From a virus: a stretch of 64,000 nt of DNA. The translations under genes and the position numbers were made by a program. Below, one piece after another: positions 10,460-42,994 of this stretch (position 1 is the stretch's first letter; each line of letters begins with the position of its first letter). Location: the IMG/VR virus record IMGVR_UViG_3300050821_003860, positions 1-64,000 of that record; one strand, 5' to 3'. The notes beneath the pieces are model-generated. The model was not told the DNA's origin. It ran no database searches and saw nothing but the letters and a program-made list of their open reading frames with translations.

Positions 10460-13297
10460 ATGGACACCAACGGTCACAGCATACCAATTGCCCATCCCGT
10501 CTCCGATACCCTGCGCGACCTACAGGAGCAGGTGGACCGGGAACGCCTGAACGCCGAACTCGCCTCGATCAAGCAAACCCGTCAAGTGATGGAGCAGGCG
10601 GGCGGGGAATTCGGCAACTGGATCAACCCGGCCACGCCGTTTTTTGACTCCCCCGATTTCTTCTTCCCCTACGTCGGCGAGAACCTCCCGTTCAATATGG
10701 ACAACCGCCTCAAGGGCGAGTTGCTCCCTGTCTACATCACGGAATATGGTCTGAAACTGCTGCGGGACTACTCCCGGTGGCTCGCGGCGTTCAACCCCTA
10801 CGCAATCTCGGCGCTCGAGAATCGGGTGTCCTACGTCATCGGCAAGGGGTTTGGTTACACGGCCGTTCCTTCCTCGCGGAAGCCCGTCTTCACGAGCGGA
10901 GACCGGGAACTCTGTCGCATGGCTCAGGCGGTGTGGGATGAGTTCACGGATCGTGTGGACTGGGGCCAGTGGGAGCAGCTCATCGCGCACAAGGTCGACG
11001 TCGATGGGGAGGCGTTTATCCGGTTCTTTCACACCGGGGGAGGGCGGGTGACGATTCGCCCCGTCGAGCCGGAGCACGTCCGCTCACCGGGGGACCAATC
11101 GGCGCACCTGAGTTACGGGATCGAGACGCCCGAATACGACATCATGGACGTCATGGCCTACTGGGTGATCTTGAACCCGGCCCTGTCGGTGTCCCCAACG
11201 CGGATCCCGGCAGAAGAGATGATGCACTTCAAGCAGGATGTCGGGCCGTCTGCTAAGCGAGGTTATCCGCTGCTCATTCCGATCCGGCAGAACCTCGCAA
11301 GAGCGGTATCCCTGCTCCAGTACATGACCGCCCTCGCGCGGGCGCAGTCCTCGATCGCCATGACGCGGAAATGGAAGCAGTACAGCGCTCAGTCAATCAA
11401 CGCCTGGCAGCAGAACAACGCGGACGTGCAGAGCGCAAACTGGTTTTCCGGACAACAAAGGTACGGCAAGCAGTACCTTCCGGGGACGGTGCTAGACATC
11501 CCGGAGAACGTGGAGTACGAGTTCCCCGCCACGAAGATCGGCGCGGCCGCACTGACGGAGGTATTGCAGGCGGAACTACGCGCGATCGGCGCTCGGTTGG
11601 TGATGCCGGAATACATGATTTCGGGGGACGCGAGCAACAATAACTACGCGAGTTCGCTTGTGTCCGAAGCCCCCTCGGTGAAGAATTTCGAGCGCATCCA
11701 GTCCACCTACTCCCGTTGGTTCGGAGACGGGCGGAAAGGCTCACCCCGTCATTGCGGGGTCTGGTGGCGCGTCATGCGTGCTGCCGTGGAATGGGGACTC
11801 CTACCGCGAGAGGTTCTCTCCCGAGTCAAGGCACACGTCGAGCCGCCGATGGTAGCAGCTCGTGACCAACAGAAGGATACGGAACGCTTCAAGTCCCTGA
11901 ACGAATCAGGAGTCATGTCCAAGGAGACGTGGAGCAAGAAAGAGGGCCTTGAGCGCGACCGGGAAAAGACACAGATTGAGAAGGAACAGGCCGAGCAACC
12001 GCAGGGTGTACCGGGTCAGCCGGGCCAAGTACCCGGACAAGTGCCAGGGCAGCCCTCTCAACCACCGAAGCCCGGGGAGCAGCCTCCCGAGCAGTCTGAG
12101 GGTAGCCCCGAACGTCCGGATGGTGGCAACAGCGGGAGTGGCGGGATCGACGAAAAGCACCTGCCCGCGATGGCTAAAGACGCGCAAGAGTGGATCGAGG
12201 AAGTATTCCGTCTCACCGGGAAAAAAGCACGTTTGGACCCTCAGCAGGTGATGGATGCCTTGCGAGGGCAGATGCCGGGTGAGCAACGTGGGATGGTGGA
12301 AGCTACGGACTCGACAGGACACGAGCACGACGATGCGGGGTTATTCACTGGCCCTGGACAACCAAGCAAGGCCGACAAGGTTTATGCACACACACAACGA
12401 CAGAAAATTTACAAGCAGTATGGGCATGTCGGTTATCAGGAGATTTCGTTAAGCGAACTAGCCGACGATGATTTGCCGGATGCAAAGGCGGCAGAAACTG
12501 CCGTGAAAATAGCACGACAAAACGAATCTGCCAATCAAGACGTTGCCGTTACCACAAATAAACACGGCACGTTTACGGTTTGGGTTGGTACAGAGAGTCC
12601 GACGCATGCCCTGGACATCACCTACAAAGATGGCGATGTAATTTTTGAATCTTCGGATGGTAGGAAGCGAATTCAGGCCGAAGATGTAGCCGAGCAAAAA
12701 CGGTGGATAACCCGCATGCTCGGGTATCGCAAGCGGAAAGAAGAAGCCTGCGAGCCCAACAAGATCGGCCACGGCTACCACGATTCCGAGTCCGGCTTTC
12801 CCTGTTCTCCTAACGGTAAATCGACAGGTCAGCGCCAGAACGGCGCAGGTGTGACCCCCCCTCACACCCAAGGTAATAAATCACCCGAGTTGTCCTCTAT
12901 CGCACAGAAAACGGCTAAAATCCTGAGCCATGCGAAGGGAGCAGTAAAGCGTCAGGCGATCCGGATGGTGGGCAAGGCGCGGGCTTTCGCGGAGAAGAAG
13001 TTTGCGGCCCTGGAGGCGAAGTACGGCCGGGCCGGGGCAATCGCGGTAATGTCGGCGGTGATCGCCATGACGCCGGTCCCGGTGCCGGGGAGCAGTCTGG
13101 CGCCGATACTGTTGGCAGAGGGGGTGCGGTATGTCGCTCAGAAGATGGCGGGGCCACAAGTAGCGATGGAATCCGTCTCCCATCCCCGCCGCTGCGCCCT
13201 CTGCGGCGGTCCAGCAATCCCAATGGCAGCCGGCGGCTATCGGTGTGGGAATCCCCCGTGTGAGTGGGTGACATGCACGACAACAGCTACCTCTTGA
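10460..13297 (+). CDS. portal protein with long C-terminal extension
   Basis: The 945-aa product has a portal core in its first 500 residues (YAISALENRVSYVIGKG, DVDGEAFIRFF, MPEYMISGDASNNNYAS, the last a hallmark region). It forms the ring through which DNA enters the head. A Pro/Gln/Gly linker (about 515-560) leads to an extension of about 385 aa. This includes GHEHDDAGLFTGPG, an AT-richer segment, an in-frame palindrome encoding GVTPPHT, a hydrophobic Ala/Val helix and a terminal zinc ribbon (CALCGG...CGNPPC). Usual portals are 450-600 aa. Such extensions may be minor head proteins or protease-cleaved modules. Confidence 0.85.
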   Translation: MDTNGHSIPIAHPVSDTLRDLQEQVDRERLNAELASIKQTRQVMEQAGGEFGNWINPATPFFDSPDFFFPYVGENLPFNMDNRLKGELLPVYITEYGLKLLRDYSRWLAAFNPYAISALENRVSYVIGKGFGYTAVPSSRKPVFTSGDRELCRMAQAVWDEFTDRVDWGQWEQLIAHKVDVDGEAFIRFFHTGGGRVTIRPVEPEHVRSPGDQSAHLSYGIETPEYDIMDVMAYWVILNPALSVSPTRIPAEEMMHFKQDVGPSAKRGYPLLIPIRQNLARAVSLLQYMTALARAQSSIAMTRKWKQYSAQSINAWQQNNADVQSANWFSGQQRYGKQYLPGTVLDIPENVEYEFPATKIGAAALTEVLQAELRAIGARLVMPEYMISGDASNNNYASSLVSEAPSVKNFERIQSTYSRWFGDGRKGSPRHCGVWWRVMRAAVEWGLLPREVLSRVKAHVEPPMVAARDQQKDTERFKSLNESGVMSKETWSKKEGLERDREKTQIEKEQAEQPQGVPGQPGQVPGQVPGQPSQPPKPGEQPPEQSEGSPERPDGGNSGSGGIDEKHLPAMAKDAQEWIEEVFRLTGKKARLDPQQVMDALRGQMPGEQRGMVEATDSTGHEHDDAGLFTGPGQPSKADKVYAHTQRQKIYKQYGHVGYQEISLSELADDDLPDAKAAETAVKIARQNESANQDVAVTTNKHGTFTVWVGTESPTHALDITYKDGDVIFESSDGRKRIQAEDVAEQKRWITRMLGYRKRKEEACEPNKIGHGYHDSESGFPCSPNGKSTGQRQNGAGVTPPHTQGNKSPELSSIAQKTAKILSHAKGAVKRQAIRMVGKARAFAEKKFAALEAKYGRAGAIAVMSAVIAMTPVPVPGSSLAPILLAEGVRYVAQKMAGPQVAMESVSHPRRCALCGGPAIPMAAGGYRCGNPPCEWVTCTTTATS
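12848..12868. repeat. GGTGTGA palindrome inside portal gene
   Basis: GGTGTGA and TCACACC flank a C-run. The usual GCGCA precedes it. It is read through in frame by the portal. Confidence 0.8.
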
Positions 13298-13770
13298 TGA
13301 CCGAACTCCGCACCGTCATCCCGCCCGGCTCCCGCGTAGCCGATTGGGGCGCCAAGGACGCCTTCGGCGATGGCGTGGTCTACCGTCGCCTGTTCGCGGA
13401 CTGCGTTTATCAGGGAGTGGATATCGAGCCGGGTCCGAACGTGGATATCGTGGTTCCGGCAGACGGTCCGTCATCCATCCCGGCCGAGTCCTTCGACGCG
13501 GTGATCAGCGGGCAGTGTCTAGAGCACGCGGAACGGCCGTGGCTCGTGGTGAAGGAGATGGCTCGCGTCCTGAAGCCGGGCGGGGTATGTATCCTCATCG
13601 CGCCGTGGCAGTGGTGTATCCACCGCTTCCCGGTCGACTGCTGGCGTATCTTGCCGGACGGTATGCGGATCTTGTGTCAGGACGCCGGGCTGACGGTTGA
13701 GAAGTGCGACGTATCGGAGAATGATTGCTATGCCGTGGCGCGGAAGCCTACATCTTCAGCAGCCTCTTGA
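13273..13770 (+). CDS. class I SAM-dependent methyltransferase
   Basis: The 165-aa protein has a SAM-binding segment (SRVADWGAKD) and the acidic loop VDIEPG. The post-motif region SGQCLEHAERPWLVVKEMARVLKPGG (broken: SGQCLEHAERPW / VVKEMARVLKPGG) is typical of Methyltransf_11. Substrate unknown; sugar or protein modification is possible given the nearby glycosyltransferases. It overlaps the portal end by 25 nt. A GTG at 13264 is an alternative start. Confidence 0.75.
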   Translation: MHDNSYLLMTELRTVIPPGSRVADWGAKDAFGDGVVYRRLFADCVYQGVDIEPGPNVDIVVPADGPSSIPAESFDAVISGQCLEHAERPWLVVKEMARVLKPGGVCILIAPWQWCIHRFPVDCWRILPDGMRILCQDAGLTVEKCDVSENDCYAVARKPTSSAAS

Positions 13771-16400: not shown

Positions 16401-17042
16401 ATGAGCTTCAACCAGAACAACCTGTACTACCAGTACGGGGACACCCTCCCGGCCTCGGTGCCGTTCGACCAAACGGTCGGGAGCGCGGCCACTACCCCGG
16501 TCGGCTTTCCCATCTCGGAAGGCGACTTGTGCTACTGGGATCCGCAAGATGACTCGATCCAGGCTCCTACGCTGGGGCCGGGCTGCGTCAAGGCGGCGGA
16601 CCAGTTCCCCTGGACCACGAACCTCTCGACAACGCAGGTCAATTTCGGGATTCAATTCTTCGGCATCTCGGCGCAATACTGGGGCGCCCAGTACCCGCTG
16701 AACAATGTTCAAGCGAACTACGGCCTGAAAGCCGGCCTTATCACGATCAATCAAAGCGGGACGTACCTCTTCCCGTGTGCTGCGGGATCAAAGTTCACAG
16801 TTGGCGATCTACTCGGCCCGGACAAGAATCCCGCTTCCAATAACATCCTCGCTCAGCAGGTGGTCAAGGTCGCAGCCACGGCGAACGCCATCGCCTACTG
16901 CGTAACGCCGTGCATCAACGCCTCGAACGTGCTGATGAAGATTCGCACCTCTTCGGGGGTGGGTGGCCAGGTCCAGCCCACGACTACCACTACCACCACG
17001 ACTACGACTACCACGACAACCACCACAACCACAACGCCTTGA
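16401..17042 (+). CDS. probable head decoration protein with poly-Thr tail
   Basis: The 213-aa product precedes the major capsid gene, where decoration or stabilisation proteins are usual. The body is beta-rich. The last 20 residues are 19 threonines and a proline, encoded by mixed ACG, ACT, ACC and ACA codons, so the run is kept at protein level. A poly-Thr tail could be O-glycosylated or simply extended. Confidence 0.7.
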   Translation: MSFNQNNLYYQYGDTLPASVPFDQTVGSAATTPVGFPISEGDLCYWDPQDDSIQAPTLGPGCVKAADQFPWTTNLSTTQVNFGIQFFGISAQYWGAQYPLNNVQANYGLKAGLITINQSGTYLFPCAAGSKFTVGDLLGPDKNPASNNILAQQVVKVAATANAIAYCVTPCINASNVLMKIRTSSGVGGQVQPTTTTTTTTTTTTTTTTTTTP

Positions 17043-17075
17043 ACGGGGCTTTCAGTCACCTAAGAGGATTCGCAG

Positions 17076-18512
17076 ATGGCACTTCGGACTCGAAAGCGGC
17101 CCGTCTATCAAAATGGCGCCGAGCGGCGGACGCGGGAGTTGGTGGAAGACTACCGCCCGCGCCTCATGCCCTACGCGCCTCCGGGATACTACGAAACGCC
17201 CCCGGACGCTGTGGACCCCAACCGGTATCAGGAGCAGACCTCCGTTACCCGCAACCGGGGCATCAACAAGCTCGGCCAGAATATGCGGGCATTGTGCGAG
17301 TCCGTGGGACCGCAGGAAGCGGCGAACATTCTCGGTCGTCTGCTTCAGTCCGGGGAGATCAAGCACACCAATTTCTCGATCAAGGAACTCGCGGAAGCGT
17401 TCTGCGGTCGGGATTGGGTGGAACGTCTCAACCCTCAGAGGGGCGGGCAGTATCAGCGGTCTGTGATGGAAGGCGGGGCCGGGCAGGGTGTTGATGTCTC
17501 GGCGTTTTCGGACATCATCGGGCAAATCTTCTTCACTCGAATCTTGGAGGGATGGCGCAACGCGACCCTGGTAGCGGAGAAGATTTTCGACCGCCAGCCC
17601 ACTGAGTTCAGCGGTGAAAAGCTGCCGTGGCTCTCCCATGTGATTCAGGAAGGCCAGCCGATCCAGTCGAACATGCCGTACCCGGAAGCGAACTTCGGGG
17701 AACGGTGGGTGCAGACCCCCTATACGCAGAAGTGGGGTATGATCGTCTCCGTCACGCGGGAGATGATCTTCTTCGACCGCACCGGCCAGGTCACTCGCGC
17801 GGCTTACGAAGTTGGGAAGAAGCTCGGCTACAACAAGGAAAAACGCTGTCTCGTCTGCTTCATGGGCATGACGAATACTTACTCGTTGAACGGGACGACG
17901 TACAACACCTACAACGTCGGTCCTCAATCCCCGCCGAGTTACGCGAACGCGCAGGCATCGACCCCGTTCGTGGATTACTCCTCGCTCCAGACGCCCCTAA
18001 CGCTGTTCAGTCAGATTCTGGACCCGGACACGCTGAACCCTCTGGATACCCCGGACTGCAAGGACTTGTTCGTCCTGCCCGCGCGGCTGTTGCACGCTCG
18101 GGCCGTGGTGAAGGCGTCGGAATATTGGGGCACGAACCCGGCGTTCAACTCTTCGCCAGCTGCCGGGGAGCCCTACGGCAACCTCCAGATGCACTCCCCG
18201 AATCCCTGGATGGACGGGGCGCTGAACATCATCACCAGCCCGATCGCTTACCAATTGCTGACGGCGGGTTCACAGGTCTACGCTCCGGCGTGGGTGAACC
18301 TGACCGCCAATCAGGCGAACGAATACTGGTGGGTGGGTGATTTCAAGCGGGCCTTCAACTACATGGAAAACTGGCCGATTACCGTCGTGCAGGCGCCGCC
18401 TCAGTCGATCCGCGAATTCGAGCAAGATTTGGTGCTCCGTTACAAGGTGAGCGAGATGGGCACGCCGGCCGTGATCGAGCCTCGGTATCTGTGCCGCCTC
18501 AATAACAGCTAA
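17076..18512 (+). CDS. major capsid protein
   Basis: The 478-aa protein follows protease and decoration genes. An N-terminal arm of about 150 residues precedes a shell-like domain (DIIGQIFFTRILEGW, VTREMIFFDRTGQV, LFVLPARLLHARAVVKASE). Order and length fit an HK97-fold major capsid protein. No direct sequence signature proves the fold. Confidence 0.85.
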   Translation: MALRTRKRPVYQNGAERRTRELVEDYRPRLMPYAPPGYYETPPDAVDPNRYQEQTSVTRNRGINKLGQNMRALCESVGPQEAANILGRLLQSGEIKHTNFSIKELAEAFCGRDWVERLNPQRGGQYQRSVMEGGAGQGVDVSAFSDIIGQIFFTRILEGWRNATLVAEKIFDRQPTEFSGEKLPWLSHVIQEGQPIQSNMPYPEANFGERWVQTPYTQKWGMIVSVTREMIFFDRTGQVTRAAYEVGKKLGYNKEKRCLVCFMGMTNTYSLNGTTYNTYNVGPQSPPSYANAQASTPFVDYSSLQTPLTLFSQILDPDTLNPLDTPDCKDLFVLPARLLHARAVVKASEYWGTNPAFNSSPAAGEPYGNLQMHSPNPWMDGALNIITSPIAYQLLTAGSQVYAPAWVNLTANQANEYWWVGDFKRAFNYMENWPITVVQAPPQSIREFEQDLVLRYKVSEMGTPAVIEPRYLCRLNNS

Positions 18513-18522
18513 AGAGGGACCG

Positions 18523-19242
18523 ATGGCAGAAGATAAACAAGCCGCTGACGCCAGCATTCAGGCCGCGAACGACAAGGCCATCGAAGCCGCACGCGCCCTT
18601 GCACGGGAGAAAGCCAAGAATGCCGTCAAGGACGTTCAGAAAGGGCCGCAAGCTACGCTTCAGAATGCAGCGCTGGCCGCTCTGGCGTCGGGTGCTCAGA
18701 CTTCAGTGCAATCGGGTTTCCAGAAGACACTGGAGCAGCAGGCCGCCGCGTTCATTCAACCCCCGGCGCAAGCAGCTCCTGAAGTGCCTCCCCCCGAGCC
18801 GCTCACCGAAGCGGAGCAGGCCGAGTACAAGTCCGCGCTGGAACGGATTCAGGAACTCCAGAAGAAGGCATATGGCGATGCCATGCCTCCGGAGGGTGTG
18901 CCGGCCCTACGACCCGTCAAGAAATGGCGGGTGCGCCTGGACGGGGTGACGATCGGCACCACGGCGGGGGCGAAGCAGTTGGTCGCCTACCAGCGCAACA
19001 CGAAGATGGTTCCGCACCCTCTCCCCGGTTACAGGCCGCTCCTCTGTCCCGATGGTCTGGACGTGGTGGAAGCCACGAGCGAAGGGGAAGCGTTCGAGAA
19101 ACTCAAGGCGCGGTTCTCGATCATTCAGACTGAAAAGACTCCTGTGATTGTGGAGTACAACAGCGCCAAGGACCGGGAACTGTTGCAGGCCGAGTTCCTC
19201 GCGGGAGTCGCCAGCGGCGATGACATGCGGATCCCGGCGTAG
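18523..19242 (+). CDS. Ala-rich coiled-coil structural protein
   Basis: The 239-aa product has an Ala/Gln-rich helical N-terminus, a Pro-rich hinge (FIQPPAQAAPEVPPPEP) and a beta-rich C-terminal part with KWRVRLDGVTIG. It follows capsid, so a head or connector role is likely. Its TAG stop runs into a GGTGTACC palindrome. Confidence 0.6.
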   Translation: MAEDKQAADASIQAANDKAIEAARALAREKAKNAVKDVQKGPQATLQNAALAALASGAQTSVQSGFQKTLEQQAAAFIQPPAQAAPEVPPPEPLTEAEQAEYKSALERIQELQKKAYGDAMPPEGVPALRPVKKWRVRLDGVTIGTTAGAKQLVAYQRNTKMVPHPLPGYRPLLCPDGLDVVEATSEGEAFEKLKARFSIIQTEKTPVIVEYNSAKDRELLQAEFLAGVASGDDMRIPA

Positions 19243-19287
19243 GTGTACCTCCCCGGTACACCGCTGGGTGTCAAGGGGGTTCACACC
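19242..19287. repeat. two-palindrome cluster
   Basis: GGTGTACC...GGTACACC at 19242-19262 is followed by GGTGT...TTCACACC at 19267-19287. The first begins in the preceding stop codon (TAGGTGTACC). Confidence 0.85.
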
Positions 19288-19317
19288 TGAGTCTAAAACG
19301 GACATCGTTGGTGTGAC

Positions 19318-19536
19318 ATGCCGCTTTTGCCGGGTTCCAGTGACGCGGTTGTTTCGCACAACATAGCGGAAATGATCAAGGCGGGTCATCCGAATGACCA
19401 GGCAGTTGCGGCGGCGTTCCGGAAGGCCGGCCGGTCGAAGTCCAAGAAAGAGAATGTCAAAGAGGACGACGAAGCGAGCGGCCAGTTTCAGGCGAAGGTC
19501 CGGAGATTGCTCGAGCGCTGTCGAAAGGGGAAGTGA
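19318..19536 (+). CDS. small phage protein of the MPLLPGSS type
   Basis: The 72-aa protein opens with [20 protein letters not shown] followed by [19 protein letters not shown], a sequence style seen in many phage proteins of unknown role. The C-terminus is charged. It overlaps the next gene by one base. Confidence 0.65.
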
Positions 19537-19820
19537 TGTCTCCCAGCGTTCCGAACACCGTCTTGCTCGCCAACCTTCAGGCCGCACAGCAGAACATCTC
19601 GGCGCTGATCGCGGACATCACCGCGAACCCCAAACCCACGTACAACGTCGATGGGCAAAATGTCGACTGGACGACGTACCTGTCGACCCTGATCGAGAAG
19701 TCAAAAAACCTCAACGAACTGATTCAAGTCGCCGGGGGGAACTTTGAACTACAAACGACCATGCTTCCGGGCGGGGGCGGGAATAGCGGCGTAGGCGGTG
19801 GAATACCGGGGATCTGGTAA
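19536..19820 (+). CDS. hypothetical connector-region protein
   Basis: The 94-aa product is helical (VLLANLQAAQQNISALIADI), with a Gly-rich end. The ATG at 19536 follows AAAGGGGAAGTG; a GTG at 19533 is possible. The next gene starts at once. Function unknown. Confidence 0.6.
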   Translation: MSPSVPNTVLLANLQAAQQNISALIADITANPKPTYNVDGQNVDWTTYLSTLIEKSKNLNELIQVAGGNFELQTTMLPGGGGNSGVGGGIPGIW

Positions 19821-20171
19821 ATGTCCACCATCCCAAACCTGATGAACGTCTTCGATGACTTCCAAGTTGTCGACCAGCTAGAGCAAGTAACTCTCTTCCG
19901 CAAGCAGCCGGACGGGACGTTTGACACCGGGACCATCTGCTACAACGCTCTCCGGCGCGAGGAGTTGATAACCGAGATCAAGGACGGGGTTTACTTCGCA
20001 ACGCAGGTAGTGACCTGGCACATTTGGGTCGCGGACTTGAACAGTCAACCCCCTCCGAAGATCCGAGACGTCGTGCAGGATGGGAACGGGGTACGCTGGA
20101 CGGTCAACGAGGAAGTGAAATACTCGACGTGGCGGACTCGTTACCCCTTGCGGACGATTCAAGAGCATTGA
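19821..20171 (+). CDS. probable head-tail connector protein
   Basis: A 116-aa protein between capsid and tail tube with a compact beta pattern (FDTGTICYNALRREELITEI, WHIWVADL, NGVRWTVNEEVKY). Size and place fit a stopper or head-closure protein. Inference from synteny. Confidence 0.55.
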   Translation: MSTIPNLMNVFDDFQVVDQLEQVTLFRKQPDGTFDTGTICYNALRREELITEIKDGVYFATQVVTWHIWVADLNSQPPPKIRDVVQDGNGVRWTVNEEVKYSTWRTRYPLRTIQEH

Positions 20172-20180
20172 GAGTGAAGC

Positions 20181-20672
20181 TTGTCCGTCCAGTTGACCAT
20201 CCTGAACGGCATGGTGGCCTACCTCAAGACGCTCACCTGGACGGGTTCCGGAGCGATTGGAACGATTCAGCCCGCGAACATCATGGTCCGGGCGCTACCG
20301 GTTGCCGAGCAAGGGTTGGAAGTCCTGCCGGCTATCTGTGTGTGTCCGGGAGAGACGGGACAGGGGGAGAAGGTCGATCAACTCCGGATGGGATCGCACG
20401 GGGAGGTCAAAGTCACCTACCGGATTCAGTTGGGCATCGTCATCAACGACAACAGCGGCTGGGATCAAAACCTTCCGCTGTACCTAACCTGGAGAGAGCA
20501 GCTACGGAAAGCCTTCCAGGACTGGCAGAACGTGATCAACGGTGTCCCCCCGGTGTGGCAGACATGGGTGCTTCCCCGGGAAGTGATCGACCGGGCCAAG
20601 CTGAATCAGAACTACGGGTACATCGTGGTTGCCGTGGACGTGATAACGAACGAGCCGCGCGGCACTCATTAG
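20181..20672 (+). CDS. probable tail terminator/completion protein
   Basis: The 163-aa product starts at TTG. An N-terminal helix (LTILNGMVAYLKTL) is followed by alternating strands (EVKVTYRIQLGIVI, YIVVAVDV). This resembles tail terminator proteins that precede tail tube genes. Assignment rests on order and size. Confidence 0.55.
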   Translation: MSVQLTILNGMVAYLKTLTWTGSGAIGTIQPANIMVRALPVAEQGLEVLPAICVCPGETGQGEKVDQLRMGSHGEVKVTYRIQLGIVINDNSGWDQNLPLYLTWREQLRKAFQDWQNVINGVPPVWQTWVLPREVIDRAKLNQNYGYIVVAVDVITNEPRGTH

Positions 20673-20681
20673 AGGAATGAC

Positions 20682-21137
20682 ATGGCTACCACCGGTCTAC
20701 CGCTGTCCGGAACAGACGGGGAAGTCTCCGTCAACGGCGTTGAATTGACGATGGACAAGTGGCAGATCAGTTCCAAGACGCCCTCCATCGGCGCCTCGTC
20801 CTTTCGGGGCCAAGGGTTCTACGAACAGACCCGTGGTCTCCGGAAAGCCTCGGTCCGGTTCTCCGGGTACTGGGATGCGAATGCGAATCCGGGAGCCAAT
20901 CCGCCGAACCTGAACGATTCGCAGTTTCTCCAGAACGTGAAGCTGTACATCTCACGGTCGATGGGCATTGCCTACCTCTTCGCGCAGTTCTACGTGGAGG
21001 AGATCATTCCGAAGGACGATCTTGAGGGACGCGCGGATTTCGAGGTCGTGGGTTACGGAGACGGGGTTTACACGACGGCCCTGACGTATACGACCACGAC
21101 AACCACCACGACCACGACGACTACCACGACGCCATGA
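20682..21137 (+). CDS. probable major tail tube protein with poly-Thr tail
   Basis: The 151-aa protein has the tube-like content GEVSVNGVELTMDKWQIS...ASVRFSGYWDANANP...VEEIIP. It lies before the chaperone and tape-measure genes. It ends in 14 threonines plus proline encoded by mixed codons. Each tail ring would display many such tails. Confidence 0.75.
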   Translation: MATTGLPLSGTDGEVSVNGVELTMDKWQISSKTPSIGASSFRGQGFYEQTRGLRKASVRFSGYWDANANPGANPPNLNDSQFLQNVKLYISRSMGIAYLFAQFYVEEIIPKDDLEGRADFEVVGYGDGVYTTALTYTTTTTTTTTTTTTTP

Positions 21138-24638: not shown

Positions 24639-26606
24639 ATGCGATTTGTCCAACTGCCACGGTTGACGCAGGGGCAACAGAACTCCCCGGACTTCATTGA
24701 CTTCCTCAACCGCATGGCCGACGCGATTGAGTTGGTCTCCAACATCACCGGCACGCCACCCATCGACGTCTTGGTTCATTCAGGGGGGATGTGCGTTCGT
24801 TACACGGGCCCCCCACAAGTGGCGAAGGTGTCTGTTTCGTCGACGGTCACAGTCGACGGCCTCTATCCCTGTACCATCGAGTCCTATAACGATGGCACGT
24901 TTTACGCCTTCATCACTGCGGTTACATCGGGCACGAACAATCCCACGATTACGACGGCTGCGGACCACAATTTGACGGTCGGGCAGCTGATATTCATTAC
25001 CGGGGTCGTCGGCGCGATTCAGGTCAACGGTCCGGCCATTGTGCTTTCGACGCCGACCTCAAAGACGTTAACTATTCAGACGGATTTGTTCACGACCAAC
25101 TACACCAGCGGCGGAACGATTCTTTCGGTGCCGTCGTGGATGCCAGAGGACGCCACAGGCTGGGTATTCCCCCCTCAGGGAGAGGTTTTGCTGGAGGAGA
25201 ACTATCCGGCCCTACTGCTCGGCACCCATTCGGACCTGAAGCCAGTATTTACGGTCACGGCGCCGGCGGTGAAGGTGCGGATTCTCGGCGCCGACACAAT
25301 GCTATTCAGCAACGTAGCGGTTGCGGACACCGGTATCACGGTCTCTTCGCTGCTGCCGTTTATGAACCCGAGTCGGTATATACTCGTCGGCGCCGAGATG
25401 ATGAACTACACCGGCGCCACCTTCCCCATCGCCTCGGTAGGCAGCAACCCGCTAGGGCAACTCAATTCGCTGACACGCGGGGCACTGGGCACGACCGCGA
25501 CGACGCACACCATCGGCGATTGGGTGCGAAGCGCGATTTACTTGACGGCCGGCATCGGTACCACGGACACGACGATATCGGTTTACAACCCAACCGCGAG
25601 CGCTCCGGAGCAGTTCCTTCCGAGTCAGTACCCTTACTATCTATATCTCGGGAATCAGAACGCCCAAACCGGGGAAGTGATTCAGGTCCAGGCGTTCATT
25701 TCCGCGACTAGTGCAATCAACTTGCAGGTCGTTCGGGGCGCTGACGGGAACCCCGCGCAGTCATGGGGAACGAATACCCCAGTGACACTCTGGACGCCTT
25801 ACAGCCCAACTCCAGGCGACGGGAAGTTTGGCCCGTGGGGACTTCGCCAGGGCGCCGTCACGGTATATATACCGATCATCAACACCGGTCAGTGGATTGA
25901 CATCGCTACTGTCTTCGTGACCCCGGTCAACACGTTCTCAAACCCCGGCGCCCAGACGCCGGCCTACTTCGCCCCCCTCTATGCCGGGAAGCGATACACG
26001 GCGATCCTGGACCCGAGCGGGGTTCCGCATCTTACGAATCCACCGCCGCTTTACGATGTGCAGGCCGAGTGGGAGCCGCCTACGTACATCAGCGGGGGAG
26101 GGACGTTCAGCTTCAATTTCGCAGGCTTTTCCCCGACGACGGGGAACGGCATTCGATTCCCCTTGAATGCCGGCACTCCGTCGAGTGGCACCCGAACCGA
26201 TCAGTGGACCGTCCAACTCCCTCAGAGTCCGGCTACGAATTGGATGGTCCGGGTTGACTGTTACATAGCGGGCGCTGGACCTCTCACCCCGCCTGCCGGA
26301 TCCTTCGGGGCTATCACTCTCTGGAACATCACCACGAGCACGAACGCGACGACGTTCACCGGGACTGCTCTGGCGACGGAGACGAGCGGCATCCCGAATA
26401 CGACGCAGAGCGGACTGTTGCCGGCGATCAACTTCTTTGCGATCGGTTTTCTTTCCAGCGGCTCATCCTTCTCCGTGGGCATGCAGAGTAATTACAACTT
26501 CGCTAACGCCGTAGACTTACCGACCGGACCTCTCGGAATCGTGACCCTGATTCCGATGGCCACCTTCCCGATTTACAACCCCGCCCAACTCTTCAACCCC
26601 GGCTAG
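24639..26606 (+). CDS. large tail/baseplate or fibre protein
   Basis: The 655-aa product is Thr/Gly-rich and beta-rich with repeated Ig-like stretches. A conserved-looking N-terminus (RLTQGQQNSPDFIDFLNRMADAI, broken: RLTQGQQNSPDF / IDFLNRMADAIEL) may attach to the tail. A receptor-binding or fibre role is plausible but unproven. Confidence 0.6.
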   Translation: MRFVQLPRLTQGQQNSPDFIDFLNRMADAIELVSNITGTPPIDVLVHSGGMCVRYTGPPQVAKVSVSSTVTVDGLYPCTIESYNDGTFYAFITAVTSGTNNPTITTAADHNLTVGQLIFITGVVGAIQVNGPAIVLSTPTSKTLTIQTDLFTTNYTSGGTILSVPSWMPEDATGWVFPPQGEVLLEENYPALLLGTHSDLKPVFTVTAPAVKVRILGADTMLFSNVAVADTGITVSSLLPFMNPSRYILVGAEMMNYTGATFPIASVGSNPLGQLNSLTRGALGTTATTHTIGDWVRSAIYLTAGIGTTDTTISVYNPTASAPEQFLPSQYPYYLYLGNQNAQTGEVIQVQAFISATSAINLQVVRGADGNPAQSWGTNTPVTLWTPYSPTPGDGKFGPWGLRQGAVTVYIPIINTGQWIDIATVFVTPVNTFSNPGAQTPAYFAPLYAGKRYTAILDPSGVPHLTNPPPLYDVQAEWEPPTYISGGGTFSFNFAGFSPTTGNGIRFPLNAGTPSSGTRTDQWTVQLPQSPATNWMVRVDCYIAGAGPLTPPAGSFGAITLWNITTSTNATTFTGTALATETSGIPNTTQSGLLPAINFFAIGFLSSGSSFSVGMQSNYNFANAVDLPTGPLGIVTLIPMATFPIYNPAQLFNPG

Positions 26607-26647
26607 TGGGCTATAATTGGTTTGCCCTCTCTCCCGGAGTATCGACC

Positions 26648-27844
26648 ATGCGAAGGATTCTATGGCTCTCCCTTCTGCTGACCGGCTGTAACACCGGACA
26701 CGGCGAGTCCGTTGTAGTGCAAAATTGCACTCCTGCGGACACCGAAGGTAGCAAATCCGCGCAGGTGTACCGGGGAGGTACACCGGAAGTAGCCCGCAGG
26801 TGTGACCCCCCTGCACACCTGAAACCTCCGACTCCGGAAGAGGAGGTCGATCGCTGGCAAACCCTGCAATCTTCGCGGATTTCACCGGCTAGGGATTGGG
26901 GCTTTTGGAAGTTCACTACCGGGGACTACCGAGAACAACTGAAGGCGAAGGTAACGAGCCTTCCTCCGATCCATTTCGACGACGCCGGACGGAAGGTGCC
27001 GCATCCGATCCGGTTCTACCCGCTTTCGGCGCCCGGATTTCCACTGGTCGAGATCAACGCGGCCGAGCAGTTGCGGCACGTCTACGATCCGTCCAGCCTC
27101 GATCAGTTCAGGAAGGACAAGCCCGTTGTCCGTGCCTCACGATGGCTACGCGGCAAGGGAATTGACCTGATTCTGGTCCCAGTGCCGAAGATGACCGAGG
27201 TCTACATCGAGCACTTCATCGACGGCGCTCCGGCAATCATCGCGCCGCACGTCCGACAGACGATAGACGAGATGATCGCAGACGACGTGGAGGTAGTGGA
27301 CCTCTTCCCGTTGTTCCGCCAGCATCGAAAGGAGTGGCTCTACAACACGGTTGATCGGCACTGGTCTCCGGCAGGGCAGAATCTCGCGGCGAAAGAAGTA
27401 GCCCAGCGTCTGAAGCGGTACGGTTTTGCCCGGAGAGATTTCGCACTGGAGAGGCAACCCTACACGGTCCTGCCGTCCTTCCAGGCGACAACCGCACCCG
27501 GAGCCATGCCGGAGCAAGAGGGCTGGGCATTCCTGACACCCGCTCAGAGGATTCTGGCCGAGAAAGTGCAAACTAGATATTGCGAAGTCCCCATTCCAAA
27601 CGAAGATGATCCAGCTTCACCGGTTCTCCTGATCGGCAACAGCTACGTCCCGAACTTCCGCGAGCAACTCATCCGGCAGGCGGGTACACTGATACGGACG
27701 CACTGGCGCCCGGCCGAGACGACGGAAAGCTTCGCAGACTTCGTGCGAGAGCCGGAGATGCTAGAGGGTGTGCGGGTAGTGGTGTGGGTAACTACCAATT
27801 GGCACCTGACCCATTTCAAGCCGTTGCCGGAGGAAGTGCGATGA
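26648..27844 (+). CDS. AlgJ/AlgX-like SGNH lipoprotein
   Basis: The 398-aa protein starts at ATG after GGAG. MRRILWLSLLLTGC forms a lipoprotein signal with Cys14. The catalytic domain has DxH at 236-238 (VDRHWSPAGQN) and a serine in LLIGNSY (Ser332), the order found in AlgJ/AlgX acetyltransferases. It may acetylate or deacetylate envelope or capsule sugars. Residues 22-58 are encoded by a repeat cluster holding three palindromes in frame. A phage lipoprotein of this type may act in superinfection exclusion. Confidence 0.7.
   Translation: MRRILWLSLLLTGCNTGHGESVVVQNCTPADTEGSKSAQVYRGGTPEVARRCDPPAHLKPPTPEEEVDRWQTLQSSRISPARDWGFWKFTTGDYREQLKAKVTSLPPIHFDDAGRKVPHPIRFYPLSAPGFPLVEINAAEQLRHVYDPSSLDQFRKDKPVVRASRWLRGKGIDLILVPVPKMTEVYIEHFIDGAPAIIAPHVRQTIDEMIADDVEVVDLFPLFRQHRKEWLYNTVDRHWSPAGQNLAAKEVAQRLKRYGFARRDFALERQPYTVLPSFQATTAPGAMPEQEGWAFLTPAQRILAEKVQTRYCEVPIPNEDDPASPVLLIGNSYVPNFREQLIRQAGTLIRTHWRPAETTESFADFVREPEMLEGVRVVVWVTTNWHLTHFKPLPEEVR
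26716..26819. repeat. three-palindrome cluster inside lipoprotein gene
   Basis: AGTGCAAAATTGCACT (26716-26731), GGTGTACC...GGTACACC (26764-26784) and GGTGTG...CACACC (26799-26819) follow each other with CGGACAC and GCGCA linkers. The reading frame passes through all three without a stop. Confidence 0.9.
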
Positions 27845-29471: not shown

Positions 29472-30347
29472 ATGGACAATCGGCCCCAAATCAAGTCGGG
29501 AATGGCCCGGATTCTGAAGAAGATCGAGGATGATCCGGCCCCGAATATCCGCGTCCACGTCGCGCAGTGTACGCTCCTGCGACCAACCGGGATGGTGTCC
29601 GGATTCTGGTCGCGGTGTGTTCAATCCATGTTTCGGGAGAACTGCTCCGGGTGGAGCATTCACTACCTACAGGACGCCAAAGGGGGAGAGATCGCGGAAG
29701 GCCGCAACGCCATCGTGGCGAGCGTTCTGGCAGAGGACCGACAGTCCCCGGTGTCGCGTACGCTCTGGATCGACGACGACGTGCTTGTGCAGCCCGGGCT
29801 GTCGATGGAGCTTTTGCTTCAGGACAAGGACATCATCTCTGGCGTCTACTTCACGAAGCGCGAGGGAGACTTGTCTCGGCCGCTGATCTACCGGGAGTTG
29901 GGGAGCGGGTCCGACACGTTCCGGCCGAATGCTGTCTATCCGGTGTTCGGGCATGGCATGGGTCTGTGCATGATCCGCACGGAAGTCTACAAACGCATGT
30001 GGGCGGAACTGGACCTTGGAACGGACAAATACGGCAACCCGCAGTGGTATCGGGAGACGTTCAAGGAGCCGCCGGTCCTCTTGGAAAACGGGGTCATGGA
30101 CACGGGCGATACGGAGGATATGTACTTCTTGAAGAACGCCCACAAGCTGGGCTATCAGCCGTGGATCGACTGCCGCAAGCACGCCTTCGGGTTTCACCAT
30201 CAGCCGGCGAAGGTGGAGACGGACAAGTTCGGCCGGCGCAAGGTGGTACAAGAGGAGACCGGCTATCCTCAGGCTCAATATGCCGCATGGGTGGCGGGCG
30301 AGAAAATTAGTTGGGAAACGCCCGAAGGCATGATAACTTGGGATTGA
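29472..30347 (+). CDS. GT-A fold glycosyltransferase
   Basis: The 291-aa protein matches phage family-2-like glycosyltransferases. It has EGRNAIVASVL for nucleotide-sugar contact, LWIDDDV as the metal-binding D-D site, a GHGMGLCMIRTEVY acceptor region and DTEDMYFLKNA. It would attach a sugar to phage DNA, virion protein or host surface. It lies between structural genes, which favours a virion substrate. A hairpin follows. Confidence 0.8.
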   Translation: MDNRPQIKSGMARILKKIEDDPAPNIRVHVAQCTLLRPTGMVSGFWSRCVQSMFRENCSGWSIHYLQDAKGGEIAEGRNAIVASVLAEDRQSPVSRTLWIDDDVLVQPGLSMELLLQDKDIISGVYFTKREGDLSRPLIYRELGSGSDTFRPNAVYPVFGHGMGLCMIRTEVYKRMWAELDLGTDKYGNPQWYRETFKEPPVLLENGVMDTGDTEDMYFLKNAHKLGYQPWIDCRKHAFGFHHQPAKVETDKFGRRKVVQEETGYPQAQYAAWVAGEKISWETPEGMITWD

Positions 30348-34224: not shown

Positions 34225-34512
34225 ATGTCCGTCGTGGAAAGCTACTTTGATCAGGCCAGAGCGAGGATGTGCTACGCCTTCCCGGACGGCGATGTCTCGG
34301 AAGTCCTTTGGGAGAAGTACCCGCAAGATGCCGGCGTCCGGTACACGTTCACGGTCGACCTCGGCTACCCGGAGCCGGTTGTCGTCCACATGATCGTAAC
34401 GCGGGAGGACGCCCGCCGGACCAAATCACCCGATCAACTAGCGATGCTGTACCGCAACCGGATCGAGAGAGCACTGGCGGAATTGGGGCGCCAGACCAAT
34501 CGGAAGGTTTAG
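34225..34512 (+). CDS. hypothetical protein
   Basis: The 95-aa protein starts at ATG after GGGAGGAC; the upstream start at 34183 crosses the palindrome. Sequence (YTFTVDLGYPEPVVVHMIVT...YRNRIERALAELG) suggests a small beta-alpha fold. Its TAG stop enters the next palindrome. Confidence 0.6.
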   Translation: MSVVESYFDQARARMCYAFPDGDVSEVLWEKYPQDAGVRYTFTVDLGYPEPVVVHMIVTREDARRTKSPDQLAMLYRNRIERALAELGRQTNRKV

Positions 34513-34532
34513 GTGTACACCCCCGGTACACC
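34512..34532. repeat. GGTGTACACC palindrome copy
   Basis: GGTGTAC...GGTACACC abuts the upstream TAG and precedes the large glycosyltransferase. Confidence 0.85.
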
Positions 34533-34559
34533 CAGCCTAAAAAGGGACAAGCTTTGTCT

Positions 34560-37292
34560 ATGAACAAGCAATTAACCGTCGCAATGGCCGCATACGGACC
34601 CAGCGAAAGCAATAACGTCTGGTTTACGTGCGAGGCGCTTCGCACCTACCACGGATACGACTTTGACCTCGTGGTAGTGAACTCCGGGCCGGAAGACTGC
34701 CGGCATATGCGGGCGGTGACGGAGGCGTGTCGGGGCAAATATGTCTGGCGCCCGGACCTTACGGGGACCAGTGCTCCGCGCGATCACGTCTTTGAGTTGG
34801 CGCAGACAGAATGGGTGATGTGCATTGACTCGCACATCTTCCTGGTGCCGGACGCGGTTCGTCACTTCCACGGATTTATCGCCCAGTCTCCCAACTGCAC
34901 CGATATCGTTTCCGGACCGCTCTTCCAAGACAACGGCGAGATTCAGGGCTACAAATGGGGCGGCGATGAGACGTGCGGCCTGTGGGGAATATGGGTCCAT
35001 CCAGAATGGGAGGAAAAAAAGCGGGCTGCGATGCCCTTTGAAATCCCCATGATGGGCCTTGGTCTCTTTGCCATGCGCAAGGAAGCGTGGCCGGGCTTCA
35101 ACCCACTCTTTCGGGGTTTCGGAGGGGAAGAAGGGTACATCCATGAAAAGGTACGTCAGCAAGGCGGTAAGGCTATTTGTCTCCCCTGGCTTGGATGGAG
35201 ACATAAGTTCCGGGACACGAAAGAGGCGGGCAAGGGAGACCCGACGCCGTACCCGTGCTTGATTCAGGATCACACGTTTAACCTATTGGTCGGGCATCGG
35301 GAGTTGGGCATCGATGCGGTGGCGAAGATTCACCGTCACTTCGGGGACCGCATGCACCCGCTCATGTGGGCGGAACTGGTCAAGGAATCGGAACGGGTCC
35401 AGCCCTTCGGAGAGTGGGCCAGGACACAGACGCCTCTCGACAAGCATTACCGCAAGGAACTGAAGCGGGCGAGCACGATCAACCAGCACATGCCGACGCT
35501 CAAGAAGCTGGCCTGTGAGGCGAGCGAGGTAGTCGAGTTCGGCGTACAGACGGCGCAGAGCACGGCAGCCCTACTCGCCGGTCGACCGGAGCGGATGCGG
35601 TCCTTCGACATCCAGTACAGTCAGGCGGGGGTGGAAGTGCTCAAGATGGCAGCGCCGGAGACGCTATCCGCCTCGTTCACTCAAACGGACACGCTGTCGC
35701 TTGCCCCACAAGCGAGCGACTTGCTTTTCATTGATACGTTGCACACCTGCGAACAGCTCTATCAAGAGCTTTACTTCCACAGCACGCACTGCCGGCGTCG
35801 GATCGTCATGCACGATACCGCCATCTTCGGGGATGTCGGGGAGGACAAGGGCCCCGGACTCCGTGAGGCGATCCGGAGATTCCTGAAAGAAGCGGGGAAC
35901 TACGGCTGGCACGTCATGTCGGACACGGAAGTCTCCTGCGGCCTGACGGTGCTCTCCAGCGATCCGAAAGACCCCTGGCAATATCCGGACTGGTTAGGCG
36001 ACCTCATTCCGAAGCTGAACATTCTCGGCATCTGGTACACGAACAACAAAGCGCCCGCGAGTTTGATGAAGAGGTCGCTCCAGTCCATCGAAAAGGCGGG
36101 CAAGTCGTCGCGGCACAACGTCAATCTCACCGTCTCCTGCTGGGACACGGTAGAAGGACTGCCTCCTGGAACACCCTACGCTTTCGCAGAGGACCGCAAC
36201 GGGAATCACGTCACCATCACCCGGCAGATGAAGCAGTGTCTAGACCTCGCGGAAGGCTGGCCGTGGGAGATAGTTTGTTTCTTGGAACACGATACCCTCT
36301 ATCCCCCCGATTACTTTGACCGGGTGGGGAGAGCGTTCCTTGAAAACCCCTCTGCGCCCGTGGTCAGCAACATGGACTACGAAGGGCTCAACGCAACCGG
36401 GTGGTTAGCCGTGCGCGAACGCCATGAGCCGATGCACCAGCTTTCTTTGCGGAGAGACGTGGCGATCGAGAACCTTGCTCGGTGCGAGCGAGACTTCCTC
36501 GCGGCCGTGCCGGGGACTCTACTGGAGCCCCAGAGCGGACCGGACGGGGACCGATCGAACTGGGCACGGATTCCGTACACCGGGGCCATGCCGTCCATCC
36601 ATGTGAATTTCCACGGACGCTTCACCTCGCATGGGGAGGTGGTGTACGAGCAAGATTCACACGGAAAGGTGATGCACCGCTTTTGGGGGTATGCCGGGGA
36701 CTACTGGCCGGGAGACTTGGACGGCAAGGTTCCCCCGCTGGTCGGGCCGAAAAACGGCTGGGGAGTGCCGGCCCTCTTGGACCTCTATGGAAGGGTCTTT
36801 GCCGAGCACGCGGACAACGGCTGGCAAGATGCGATGATGCGGCTCCGCAGGATTTCAGCGGGACAAAATCACGTCACGTTGATTTCCGGGGGACCGACTC
36901 CGGCGTTCATTGCCCTGGCAACGGGACGGCCGAAACAGCTTTTGCACGTCTGCCCCGGGGGAGACCCGAGCTGGAATGCGTTCCTGTCCAAACACGTGTC
37001 AATGGGTCAGAACACGACCCTAAAGACCAATCCGAGCCTGGACCCGTTCTGGCTGGAAGACACGGACGTCACGCCTACCGATGTGATGGTGTTCTCGGAT
37101 ACCCCGGAGGCGGATCGGTTGCAGGCCCTTCTGGTGCGTCATGCGGCGAAGTCCCGACAGAAGGTAGTGATTTGCCTCACCCCGGAGATGAAGGAACAGG
37201 AAGGGGCGGAAGCGTGGTTACAGTCGATGCCGGAGTGGGGACGGAAGGACGCCCCGCACGGGATCCTAGTCTTTCAGAGGGTAGGAAACTGA
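34560..37292 (+). CDS. multidomain glycosyltransferase-methyltransferase
   Basis: The 910-aa protein starts at ATG; the frame upstream is non-coding. Domain 1 (1-300) is GT-A-like: VAMAAYGPSE, CIDSHIFL, FGGEEGYIHEKV. Domain 2 (about 310-480) resembles class-24 SAM methyltransferases: VVEFGVQTAQSTAALL, LLFIDTLHTCEQ, RRIVMHDT. Domain 3 (about 490-720) is again GT-like: ICFLEHDTLYPPDYF-type metal site (VCFLEHDTLYPP). Domain 4 has a degenerate Rossmann-like pattern (HVTLISGGPTPAFIAL). It probably builds and caps an O-linked glycan. Most phage glycosyltransferases are single-domain. Confidence 0.75.
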   Translation: MNKQLTVAMAAYGPSESNNVWFTCEALRTYHGYDFDLVVVNSGPEDCRHMRAVTEACRGKYVWRPDLTGTSAPRDHVFELAQTEWVMCIDSHIFLVPDAVRHFHGFIAQSPNCTDIVSGPLFQDNGEIQGYKWGGDETCGLWGIWVHPEWEEKKRAAMPFEIPMMGLGLFAMRKEAWPGFNPLFRGFGGEEGYIHEKVRQQGGKAICLPWLGWRHKFRDTKEAGKGDPTPYPCLIQDHTFNLLVGHRELGIDAVAKIHRHFGDRMHPLMWAELVKESERVQPFGEWARTQTPLDKHYRKELKRASTINQHMPTLKKLACEASEVVEFGVQTAQSTAALLAGRPERMRSFDIQYSQAGVEVLKMAAPETLSASFTQTDTLSLAPQASDLLFIDTLHTCEQLYQELYFHSTHCRRRIVMHDTAIFGDVGEDKGPGLREAIRRFLKEAGNYGWHVMSDTEVSCGLTVLSSDPKDPWQYPDWLGDLIPKLNILGIWYTNNKAPASLMKRSLQSIEKAGKSSRHNVNLTVSCWDTVEGLPPGTPYAFAEDRNGNHVTITRQMKQCLDLAEGWPWEIVCFLEHDTLYPPDYFDRVGRAFLENPSAPVVSNMDYEGLNATGWLAVRERHEPMHQLSLRRDVAIENLARCERDFLAAVPGTLLEPQSGPDGDRSNWARIPYTGAMPSIHVNFHGRFTSHGEVVYEQDSHGKVMHRFWGYAGDYWPGDLDGKVPPLVGPKNGWGVPALLDLYGRVFAEHADNGWQDAMMRLRRISAGQNHVTLISGGPTPAFIALATGRPKQLLHVCPGGDPSWNAFLSKHVSMGQNTTLKTNPSLDPFWLEDTDVTPTDVMVFSDTPEADRLQALLVRHAAKSRQKVVICLTPEMKEQEGAEAWLQSMPEWGRKDAPHGILVFQRVGN

Positions 37293-41614: not shown

Positions 41615-42994
41615 ATGAAAGATAAGCGTTGGCTCGGTCCATCGGTTCTGTTCGCCGCAACCATGATCGGCCTTGGCTTCGTCTACGGCTTTCAGCCTGC
41701 CGCCCCTCCCATTCGCGCCGACAAGCCCGCAAGCAAGATCCACACGCACTACCGCCGACCGGGCATCCGCGCCCATGTCACGGGCACCTCGTACACGCCT
41801 CCGGGGGTGGCGGCGAAGTACAACTTTCCGAATGGCGTTACGGGACACGGTGCTCTGGTCGGCATCATCGAATTAGGGGGAGCGTACAACCCTAGCGACA
41901 TCACAACGTACATGGCTGGGCTTGGAATTAGTCCGACTGGCGTCTTGCAAGTCATTACTGTTCAGGGCGCAAGACCACCGACTAGCGACGGGCCGACCGG
42001 TGCCGATGGCGAAGTGATGTTGGATGCAGAAGTGATCTACTCGATCGCTCCTGGCGCCAACATCAACATGTACTTCGCAGACAATACCGCTGCCAGCTTC
42101 CTCGCGGGATGTCAGCAGGCACGGCAAGACGGTTGCAAGATAATCTCGATTTCCTGGGGAGGTCCGGAGGCAGGCTACTCTGCGGCGGAACTACAGGCGT
42201 TCAATACCGAGTTTGAGACAGGAGCGAACAGTGGTGTCAATTACTTCGTTGCGGCTGGGGATAACGGCTCCAACGATGGTACGACAGGTCTCGCAGTCGA
42301 TTTTCCTGGTAGCTCGCCGTGGGTCATCTGCTGCGGTGGAACATCCCTCCCGGCGAGTGGGGCCGAAACGGTCTGGAACAACGGACCAAGCAACGGAGCT
42401 ACGGGTGGCGGTATCTCAGCCCACTTCCCTAAGCCCGCCTGGCAGACCGTCCAGCCCTTCGGAGTAACGAGCACTGTCGCCAACCGCATGTCGCCGGATA
42501 TTGCTGGCAACGCGGACCCGGACACCGGGTATCAAACGCTGGTGGATGGCACGTCGGGGACCATCGGCGGGACATCCGCTGTCGCACCGCTGTACGCTGC
42601 GATGACGGCCCTCTATTGGGAGAAGCTCGGCAAGGCACCGGGTTTTCTCGGACCGCAACTCTACGGTGTGGTGAGTCCGTACCAGAAGGCTTTCATCGAC
42701 ATCGTTCAGGGGAACAACGGCAACTACAAGGCAGGGACAGGCTTCGACTGCGCGACCGGTATCGGGCGACCGGACGGCGCGAACTTGCTCACGGCTCTTG
42801 GCGGTCCTAGCGGTGGAGGAGGGGGCGGCGGGCCCACGGCAACACCAGCGTTTACCCTGAACTTCCCGACCGCAGTACCGGCCGGCGCGACGTTCCGGAT
42901 TCGCACGTCAAAGGCAATCGCCAAAGGTTTTTACAACGCCTTCCCGGTGACGGCACCAGCGGTGGAAGTTGAAGTGGAAGCCGTGGCGAAGTAA
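41615..42994 (+). CDS. sedolisin (S53) family secreted protease
   Basis: The 459-aa protein has an N-terminal signal or anchor (SVLFAATMIGLGFVYGF). The S53 catalytic residues are visible: Glu133 and Asp137 in GEVMLDAE, oxyanion Asp216 in AAGDNGS and Ser321 in IGGTSAVAP. The C-terminal calcium site (DIVQGNNGNY...GTGFDCATGIGRPDG) is intact. The usual large pro-domain is missing. It would cleave proteins at acid or neutral pH outside the cytoplasm. S53 enzymes are rare in phages. It may digest host envelope protein during lysis or entry. Confidence 0.9.
   Translation: MKDKRWLGPSVLFAATMIGLGFVYGFQPAAPPIRADKPASKIHTHYRRPGIRAHVTGTSYTPPGVAAKYNFPNGVTGHGALVGIIELGGAYNPSDITTYMAGLGISPTGVLQVITVQGARPPTSDGPTGADGEVMLDAEVIYSIAPGANINMYFADNTAASFLAGCQQARQDGCKIISISWGGPEAGYSAAELQAFNTEFETGANSGVNYFVAAGDNGSNDGTTGLAVDFPGSSPWVICCGGTSLPASGAETVWNNGPSNGATGGGISAHFPKPAWQTVQPFGVTSTVANRMSPDIAGNADPDTGYQTLVDGTSGTIGGTSAVAPLYAAMTALYWEKLGKAPGFLGPQLYGVVSPYQKAFIDIVQGNNGNYKAGTGFDCATGIGRPDGANLLTALGGPSGGGGGGGPTATPAFTLNFPTAVPAGATFRIRTSKAIAKGFYNAFPVTAPAVEVEVEAVAK

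Follow-up and report, generated by a model that had tools for sequence, protein, structure and literature searches.

The stretch analysed here, referred to below as the window, comprises 64,000 of the 68,022 bases of an IMG/VR virus record (IMGVR_UViG_3300050821_003860) and encodes two proteins which end in long threonine runs, together with an Asp-x-His (DxH) glycosyltransferase which may modify them (Table 1). The genes were found in the order portal (PF05136), a 539-aa protein, the protein ending in Thr19-Pro (T19 protein), the capsid candidate, adaptors, the protein ending in Thr14-Pro (T14 protein), a chaperone-like pair and the tape measure protein (PHROG 1533). Read-out of the open reading frames (ORFs) confirmed both Thr-Pro ends, each with all four Thr codons mixed, as described in an earlier sequence-only reading of this DNA, and hydroxyl acceptors of the Ser/Thr type exist at the C-termini of both proteins. 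The two tails were the only Thr runs of seven or more residues in the six frames of the window. Because eight consecutive Thr codons, (ACN)8, were found in none of 42 randomly drawn whole IMG/VR records (1,220,848 bases), these runs cannot be attributed to chance.

Based on the gene order the T19 protein was placed as the decoration protein and the T14 protein as the tail-tube protein. The labels "decoration-like" and "tail-tube-like" given to them earlier hold in this positional sense, and found no backing from family matches or structure: neither protein matched a family where scanned (PHROGs and NCBIfam for the T19 protein) and single-sequence AlphaFold models were too poor to be used (mean predicted local distance difference test scores of 31 and 39). 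Peptide-pattern searches of IMG/VR and GTDB gave no direct relatives of the window capsid or tail-tube proteins, and a portal search found no phage record.

Table 1. Coordinates of the Thr-tailed proteins, the DxH enzyme and other genes of interest in the window.
Feature	Positions	Strand	Basis or remark
SAM (S-adenosylmethionine) methyltransferase PF08241; glycan-tailoring role only putative	13264-13770	+	Pfam match
Decoration-position protein, 213 aa, C-terminus T19-P	16401-17042	+	Immediately 5' of capsid gene
Thr19 tail, (ACN)19	nt 16980-17036, aa 194-212	+	ACC7 ACG5 ACT4 ACA3, then Pro-stop
Major capsid protein candidate	17076-18512	+	Weak PHROG 1650 match, E 0.0023; Gemmata-type prophage homologues
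Tail-tube-position protein, 151 aa, C-terminus T14-P	20682-21137	+	Position in gene order
Thr14 tail, (ACN)14	nt 21090-21131, aa 137-150	+	ACG7 ACC5 ACA1 ACT1, then Pro-stop
AlgX-like SGNH/acetyltransferase domain protein; possible sugar O-acetylation, putative	26606-27844	+	PF16822, E 1.6e-20
Possible glycosyltransferase	29472-30347	+	DDD motif by eye; PHROG 1574 (unknown function) only
DxH glycosyltransferase domain PF00535, GALNT-like; proposed acceptor-modifying enzyme	34554-35423	+	Pfam, alignments A2/A3
Methyltransf_24-like region, same ORF	35424-36080	+	Below cut-off, E 0.016
C-terminal part, same ORF	36081-37292	+	EHD-type motif by eye, no Pfam match; homologous to separate Gemmata prophage gene
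2-oxoglutarate (2OG)-Fe(II) oxygenase PF13640	37535-38275	+	Pfam match; 242 nt 3' of DxH enzyme ORF

Poly-Thr tails were also found in other phages when IMG/VR was scanned for T10-Pro-stop (8 stretches), (ACN)14 (at least 120) and T10-stop with TAA or TGA (71 stretches). The loci from these Thr-pattern scans contained 71 distinct ORFs, some of them doubtful, with ten or more Thr at most six residues from the C-terminus. Over all tails read, shorter ones included, run lengths ranged from 5 to more than 60. When ten tailed ORFs were typed, three (L166, L137, L133) gave no match and seven matched virion families, namely lambda head decoration protein D (L052, L179; PF02924, PHROG 49), capsid proteins of three families (GP7-type in L163 and L171, capsid E in L075, PHROG 422 major head protein in L094) and the PHROG 807 major tail protein (L006). 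Several records had two or three tailed proteins, with three each in L011, L168 and L171. A literature search found no publication on poly-threonine phage proteins or phage GalNAc-transferases. Four phages with tailed tail tubes (L004, L096, L150, L155) also encoded ORFs of 49-70 aa in which an N-P-G-x-(H/N)-P-x-(M/L)-R-x-W core is followed by a poly-Thr tail.

The tails were compared in an alignment of the tail-tube family (A1) in which 80 of 101 loci were kept. Ser/Thr tails were present in 52 of these 80 relatives and contained 515 Thr and 111 Ser among 665 residues; most tails were Thr, some were mixed and four were Ser (L205, L221, L225, L234). The codon changes in the tails of 15 close pairs, which are not independent of each other, were 77 synonymous, five exchanges between Ser and Thr and three others, all three at the final residue, while the bodies of the same pairs had 976 synonymous and 398 nonsynonymous changes. 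Identical neighbouring codons were rarer than in shuffled tails (285 vs. 344.7 expected, 73 runs). As the tail changes are near-synonymous and identical neighbours are depleted, the Thr and Ser residues are kept as such and a DNA repeat is avoided; the hydroxyl residues in the tails are under selection. Replication slippage as the sole cause of the runs was rejected on the same two counts, which bears out the earlier remark that mixed codons make slippage alone insufficient. PHROG 807, a major tail protein with an immunoglobulin (Ig)-like domain, belongs to the same tail-tube family, and its domain occupies the same C-terminal position as the Ser/Thr tails. Some of the untailed relatives (L269-L272) are much extended at the C-terminus, Ig-like by eye. 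The tailed members carry a low-complexity Ser/Thr stretch at the site of a folded domain.

The proposed modifying enzyme is encoded by ORF 34269-37292, with a probable start at TTG 34554 or ATG 34560 and AAGGGA just 5'. An EHD-type motif in its C-terminal part suggests a second glycosyltransferase domain. The closest enzymes (48%-53%) were those of Gemmata-type prophages L315-L319, L395 and L396, the last two from Gemmata sp. IIL30. Because Gemmata prophages carry the parts as neighbouring genes, the enzyme adjoining another gene with homology to the remaining part of the window ORF, this ORF looks like a fusion. Several of the same prophages contained homologues of the window capsid candidate (31%-33% for the best matches), and a 58-aa match of 36% to the tail-tube-position protein was found in L396. 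Judging from these relatives, the host of the window phage is probably a Planctomycete.

Residues D92, H94 and H217 and the motif F-G-x-E-E (GFGGEE-type) were invariant across 36 members of the enzyme family (alignments A2 and A3). The animal polypeptide GalNAc-transferases (GALNTs; CAZy family GT27) have a comparable site, the metal ligands of GALNT1 being Asp209, His211 and His344 (PMC4202792). Both the GT27-type DxH metal site and the third metal His were present in the window family; the third His aligned with the GALNT His when a profile of the C-terminal half was searched against the PDB, and the GGE motif was in common. Six of the seven matches of this profile were GALNT2, 7 and 10 (E 0.008-1), and the window domain alone gave GALNT7 as the top match (E 0.0023), whereas a DxD control family (A6) had no GALNT among nine matches. 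The full-length A2 profile matched GALNT10 over positions 31-223 (E 2.7e-5), with other GT2 enzymes ranking higher over the N-terminal half, and the full-length A3 profile returned GALNTs at E 0.007-0.16, ranked below other GT2 enzymes. A second DxH subfamily (A5), which aligned with A3 at 98% probability, had GALNT10 as its top match (E 2.3e-7) and, among other GT2 enzymes, six other GALNTs and one polypeptide N-acetylgalactosaminyltransferase. We describe the window domain as probably GALNT-like and do not claim membership of GT27.

Linkage between this enzyme and Thr runs was seen starting from the enzyme. A tblastn search with the window domain matched eight loci, all from the Thr-run scans (7 of 120 in the (ACN)14 set, 1 of 65 in the T10-stop set and 0 of 8 in the T10-Pro set), and had no match among the 76 tail-tube loci or the 42 random ones. 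The enzyme gene lay directly beside the Thr-run gene in L039, L042 and L082 (14 nt gap, mutually related) and in L117 (21 nt), overlapped the gene of a T10-tailed protein by 5 nt in L166, and was 1.8-4.4 kb away in L081, L040 and L119. Profile A2 found 553 viral relatives, of which 80 were kept. At these loci (ACN)8 was present in 30 of 80, or 14 of 21 clusters at 60% identity, compared with none of 42 random loci (Fisher by cluster, 3e-9), in line with the co-occurrence in other phages that the sequence-only reading had put forward as a check. Because the enzyme loci were on average longer than the random loci, whole random records were used as a control, and (ACN)8 was found in 22 of 29 whole enzyme records and again in none of 42 random ones. 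A Thr-rich ORF, defined by a run of at least five Thr and by 14 of 20 residues being Ser/Thr, lay on the enzyme strand at 34 of the 80 viral enzyme loci and at 17 of 80 from bacterial genomes; the 42 random loci had none, whichever strand was read. After 3 viral and 7 genome loci had been set aside because their upstream sequence was too short, such an ORF stood immediately upstream of the enzyme at 16 of 77 viral loci and at 6 of 73 from genomes. A less strict definition gave 42 of 80 enzyme loci against 3 of 42 random loci, none of these three with a Thr run. The A3 and A5 profiles matched nothing in the 42 random records. The window PF00535 domain is thus of a kind genetically linked to Thr-rich genes, its role as a protein glycosyltransferase being putative. 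One ORF shortly before an enzyme gene (L351:9021-9767) contained an uninterrupted Ser/Thr run of 143 residues.

When the tailed phages were taken as the starting point, the tail-tube set (tailed and untailed records and the window) gave PF00535 in 17 of 51 records and the other Thr-pattern records in 7 of 50; 3 of 42 random records also had a match, all three below the cut-off. This overall count is weak since most contigs are short fragments, and we therefore relied on records of at least 50 kb and on the enzyme-first test above. At this length PF00535 exceeded the cut-off in 11 of 13 tailed records (including the window) compared with none of seven random records (p 0.0005); L180 (61.8 kb, glycosyltransferase over cut-off) was excluded because the 71 tail ORFs did not include its Thr run. 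Poly-Thr phages without the enzymes, which the earlier reading had named as contrary to its proposal, were not the rule in these records. The DxH motif was present in 12 of 14 tailed records read (G000, G005, G010, G017, G018, G020, G021, G025, G103, G115, G118, G123) and in one of five untailed records (G048; not G036, G037, G038 or G047). Subfamily A5 was found in 8 of 30 tailed tail-tube records (7 of 10 of at least 50 kb), 0 of 20 untailed and 0 of 42 random records, which, as A5 was built from tailed phages, shows restriction to these phages and not independence. The 30 include L201, whose S-rich, interrupted tail-tube end fails the tail rule and where no enzyme was matched. In the untailed G036, G037 and G038 (L493-L495) a DxD GT2 gene lies about 3-6 kb 5' of the tail-tube gene, and the tail tube ends in Ser. 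The G048 protein (L496:1175-3415, 747 aa) appeared by eye to join a GALNT-like transferase of the DAH type with parts resembling a further transferase and a methyltransferase, a make-up like that of the window's fused ORF; the G048 tail tube ends GGGS.

We consider it probable, from genes and alignments, that a mucin-type-like O-glycosylation encoded by the phage uses the poly-Thr tails as its acceptor sites. The tail O-glycosylation suggested by the sequence-only reading gained support from the exchange of Ser and Thr, the near-synonymous drift and the co-occurrence with the DxH glycosyltransferase class; the step from this co-occurrence to chemistry is one that we infer. The occurrence of Thr-ended coat or tail proteins with a GALNT-like enzyme in unrelated phages suggests that the particles may be sugar-coated.

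Several observations weigh against this interpretation. The similarity to GALNTs is weak, the best E values being 0.002-0.07 for the domain or C-terminal half of the window family. The top PDB matches of the full-length A2 and A3 profiles were bacterial GT2 enzymes through the N-terminal fold, and GALNTs are set apart only by the C-terminal half. No ricin-type lectin domain was matched by Pfam in the enzyme ORF. No (ACN)8 was present in 7 of the 29 whole enzyme records, most short tailed contigs had no glycosyltransferase, and GT2 genes were also present in three of five untailed relatives of at least 50 kb. The glycosyltransferase read in tailed G007 and G009 was of the DxD type and tailed G019 had none. 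Members of a single phage family do not count as independent cases, and A5 itself was derived from tailed phages. The closest prophages keep the enzyme and the capsid, yet the L396 tail tube that was read has no poly-Thr. Since L316, L317 and L396 have a Thr-rich protein upstream of the enzyme and the L396 tail tube is without Thr, it appears that the acceptor changes its place and that the enzyme is retained.

Long poly-Thr stretches left unmodified should tend to aggregate. This speaks against the view that the tails stay unmodified and serve as flexible, hydroxyl-rich bristles or as adhesive strands for spacing, solubility or host contact, with the glycosyltransferases acting on something else such as host polysaccharide or phage DNA. 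The two DxD enzymes and the one enzyme-free tailed record fit such bristles, and phage glycosyltransferases are described as also modifying DNA and host serotype (PMC12619734). The enzyme gene, however, directly adjoins Thr-rich genes in several unrelated phages and the DxH GALNT-like class is over-represented in tailed phages, and we regard unmodified bristles as unlikely.

Modification without sugar, by phosphorylation through a host or phage kinase or by acylation or hydroxylation through the AlgX-like protein and the oxygenase, appears more doubtful still. Thr and Ser are kinase targets too, and the window does contain oxygenase and AlgX-like genes, but the recurrent partner of the tails is a glycosyltransferase: oxygenase homologues were near the enzyme at 4 of 160 loci and AlgX-like homologues at 0 of 160, and no kinase was found among the part of the window proteins that was scanned. 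Least probable of all, to a degree that we give it hardly any weight, are neutral trinucleotide expansions by replication slippage at gene ends. Slippage can produce long runs of one residue and the run lengths vary widely, but codons are mixed with fewer identical neighbours than in shuffled tails, 77 of 85 tail changes are synonymous, and Ser replaces Thr.

Glycosylation of virions is known from mycobacteriophages (Che8, Corndog, Myrna; Freeman et al. 2023 as cited in PMC12619734 and PMC12363180), and the earlier term "undescribed system" was too strong. According to these articles, the capsid and tail-tube subunits of Mycobacterium phages were seen to carry glycans at their C-termini (PMC12619734), and Che8 gp110 and Corndog gp38 are essential for capsid glycosylation (PMC12363180). 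Phage-encoded glycosyltransferases, putatively acting on protein in the window, are common to both, and the window's Thr tails are likewise C-terminal and would be the glycan sites. Che8 gp108 looks by eye like a fused glycosyltransferase-methyltransferase, as the window ORF does. In contrast to the window proteins, the Che8 capsid and tail-tube proteins have no Thr runs and end KTGS and SDGS. No significant blastp or phmmer match was found between Che8 gp108-gp110 and the window enzyme, and profile A3 matched none of the Che8 (L131) proteins. At least 11 tail tubes without a Ser/Thr tail (L247-L254, L256, L258, L267) have one Ser as their last residue, preceded by a non-Ser/Thr stretch; such ends (VAS, GES, TGS, GDS) recall those of Che8 and are possibly one-site acceptors. 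With the GT27 enzymes the window enzyme shares the GT-A/PF00535-type domain, the DxH with the third His, the GGE motif and, as proposed, Ser/Thr acceptors. It differs from them in the lectin domain and in its fusion to methyltransferase-like and further parts, and the sequence similarity is weak.

The best reading of the system is phage virion glycosylation in a new form, in which a DxH enzyme would start glycans on Thr/Ser tails. Before assembly the enzyme would use a nucleotide sugar to glycosylate many of the Thr hydroxyls in each tail, as animal GALNTs do, and the other parts of the fused ORF would extend and methylate these sugars. With many copies of both tailed proteins, dense glycan brushes would cover capsid and tail; speculatively, these could shield against proteases or other binders or provide weak adhesion to host surface sugars. 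What appears to be new is the recurrence of poly-Thr C-termini on decoration, capsid and tail-tube proteins and an enzyme family linked to Thr-rich genes. More tentatively, and with slightly more doubt than belief, we propose that a mucin-type-like O-glycosylation is common to tailed phages of many hosts, with GALNT-like DxH transferases initiating glycans on homopolymeric Thr/Ser tails and linkers of virion proteins to form a dense brush, and that animal GT27 may be related to, or derive from, these phage and bacterial enzymes. If this is correct, a low-complexity Thr/Ser tail would be a readable signature of virion glycosylation in any phage with such a tail, and small soluble enzymes may be at hand which install dense O-glycans on simple Thr tags. 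Phage particle glycosylation would reach beyond mycobacteriophages to phages that infect Planctomycetes and many uncultured hosts, with a bearing on the origin of animal mucin-type transferases.

Other modifying enzymes listed by the sequence-only reading fared unevenly. From its two glycosyltransferases the PF00535 domain was recovered, while the protein at 29472-30347 had no Pfam, NCBIfam or PDB match. From its two SAM methyltransferases PF08241 was recovered, the second being the sub-threshold region inside the PF00535 ORF. The 2OG oxygenase was verified. The roles proposed for methyltransferase and oxygenase are partly supported, homologues of the fused methyltransferase-like region being near the enzyme at 20 of 160 loci; the few oxygenase homologues were close to the enzyme gene in L332, L336, L380 and L393. 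The AlgX-like SGNH protein has a lipoprotein-like N-terminus (LLLTGC) and sits in the phage late region. Several proteins encoded at 41615-47707 have signal-peptide-like N-termini, and one of them is Gly/Phe-rich (47258-47707); these are perhaps secreted or host-envelope directed cargo.

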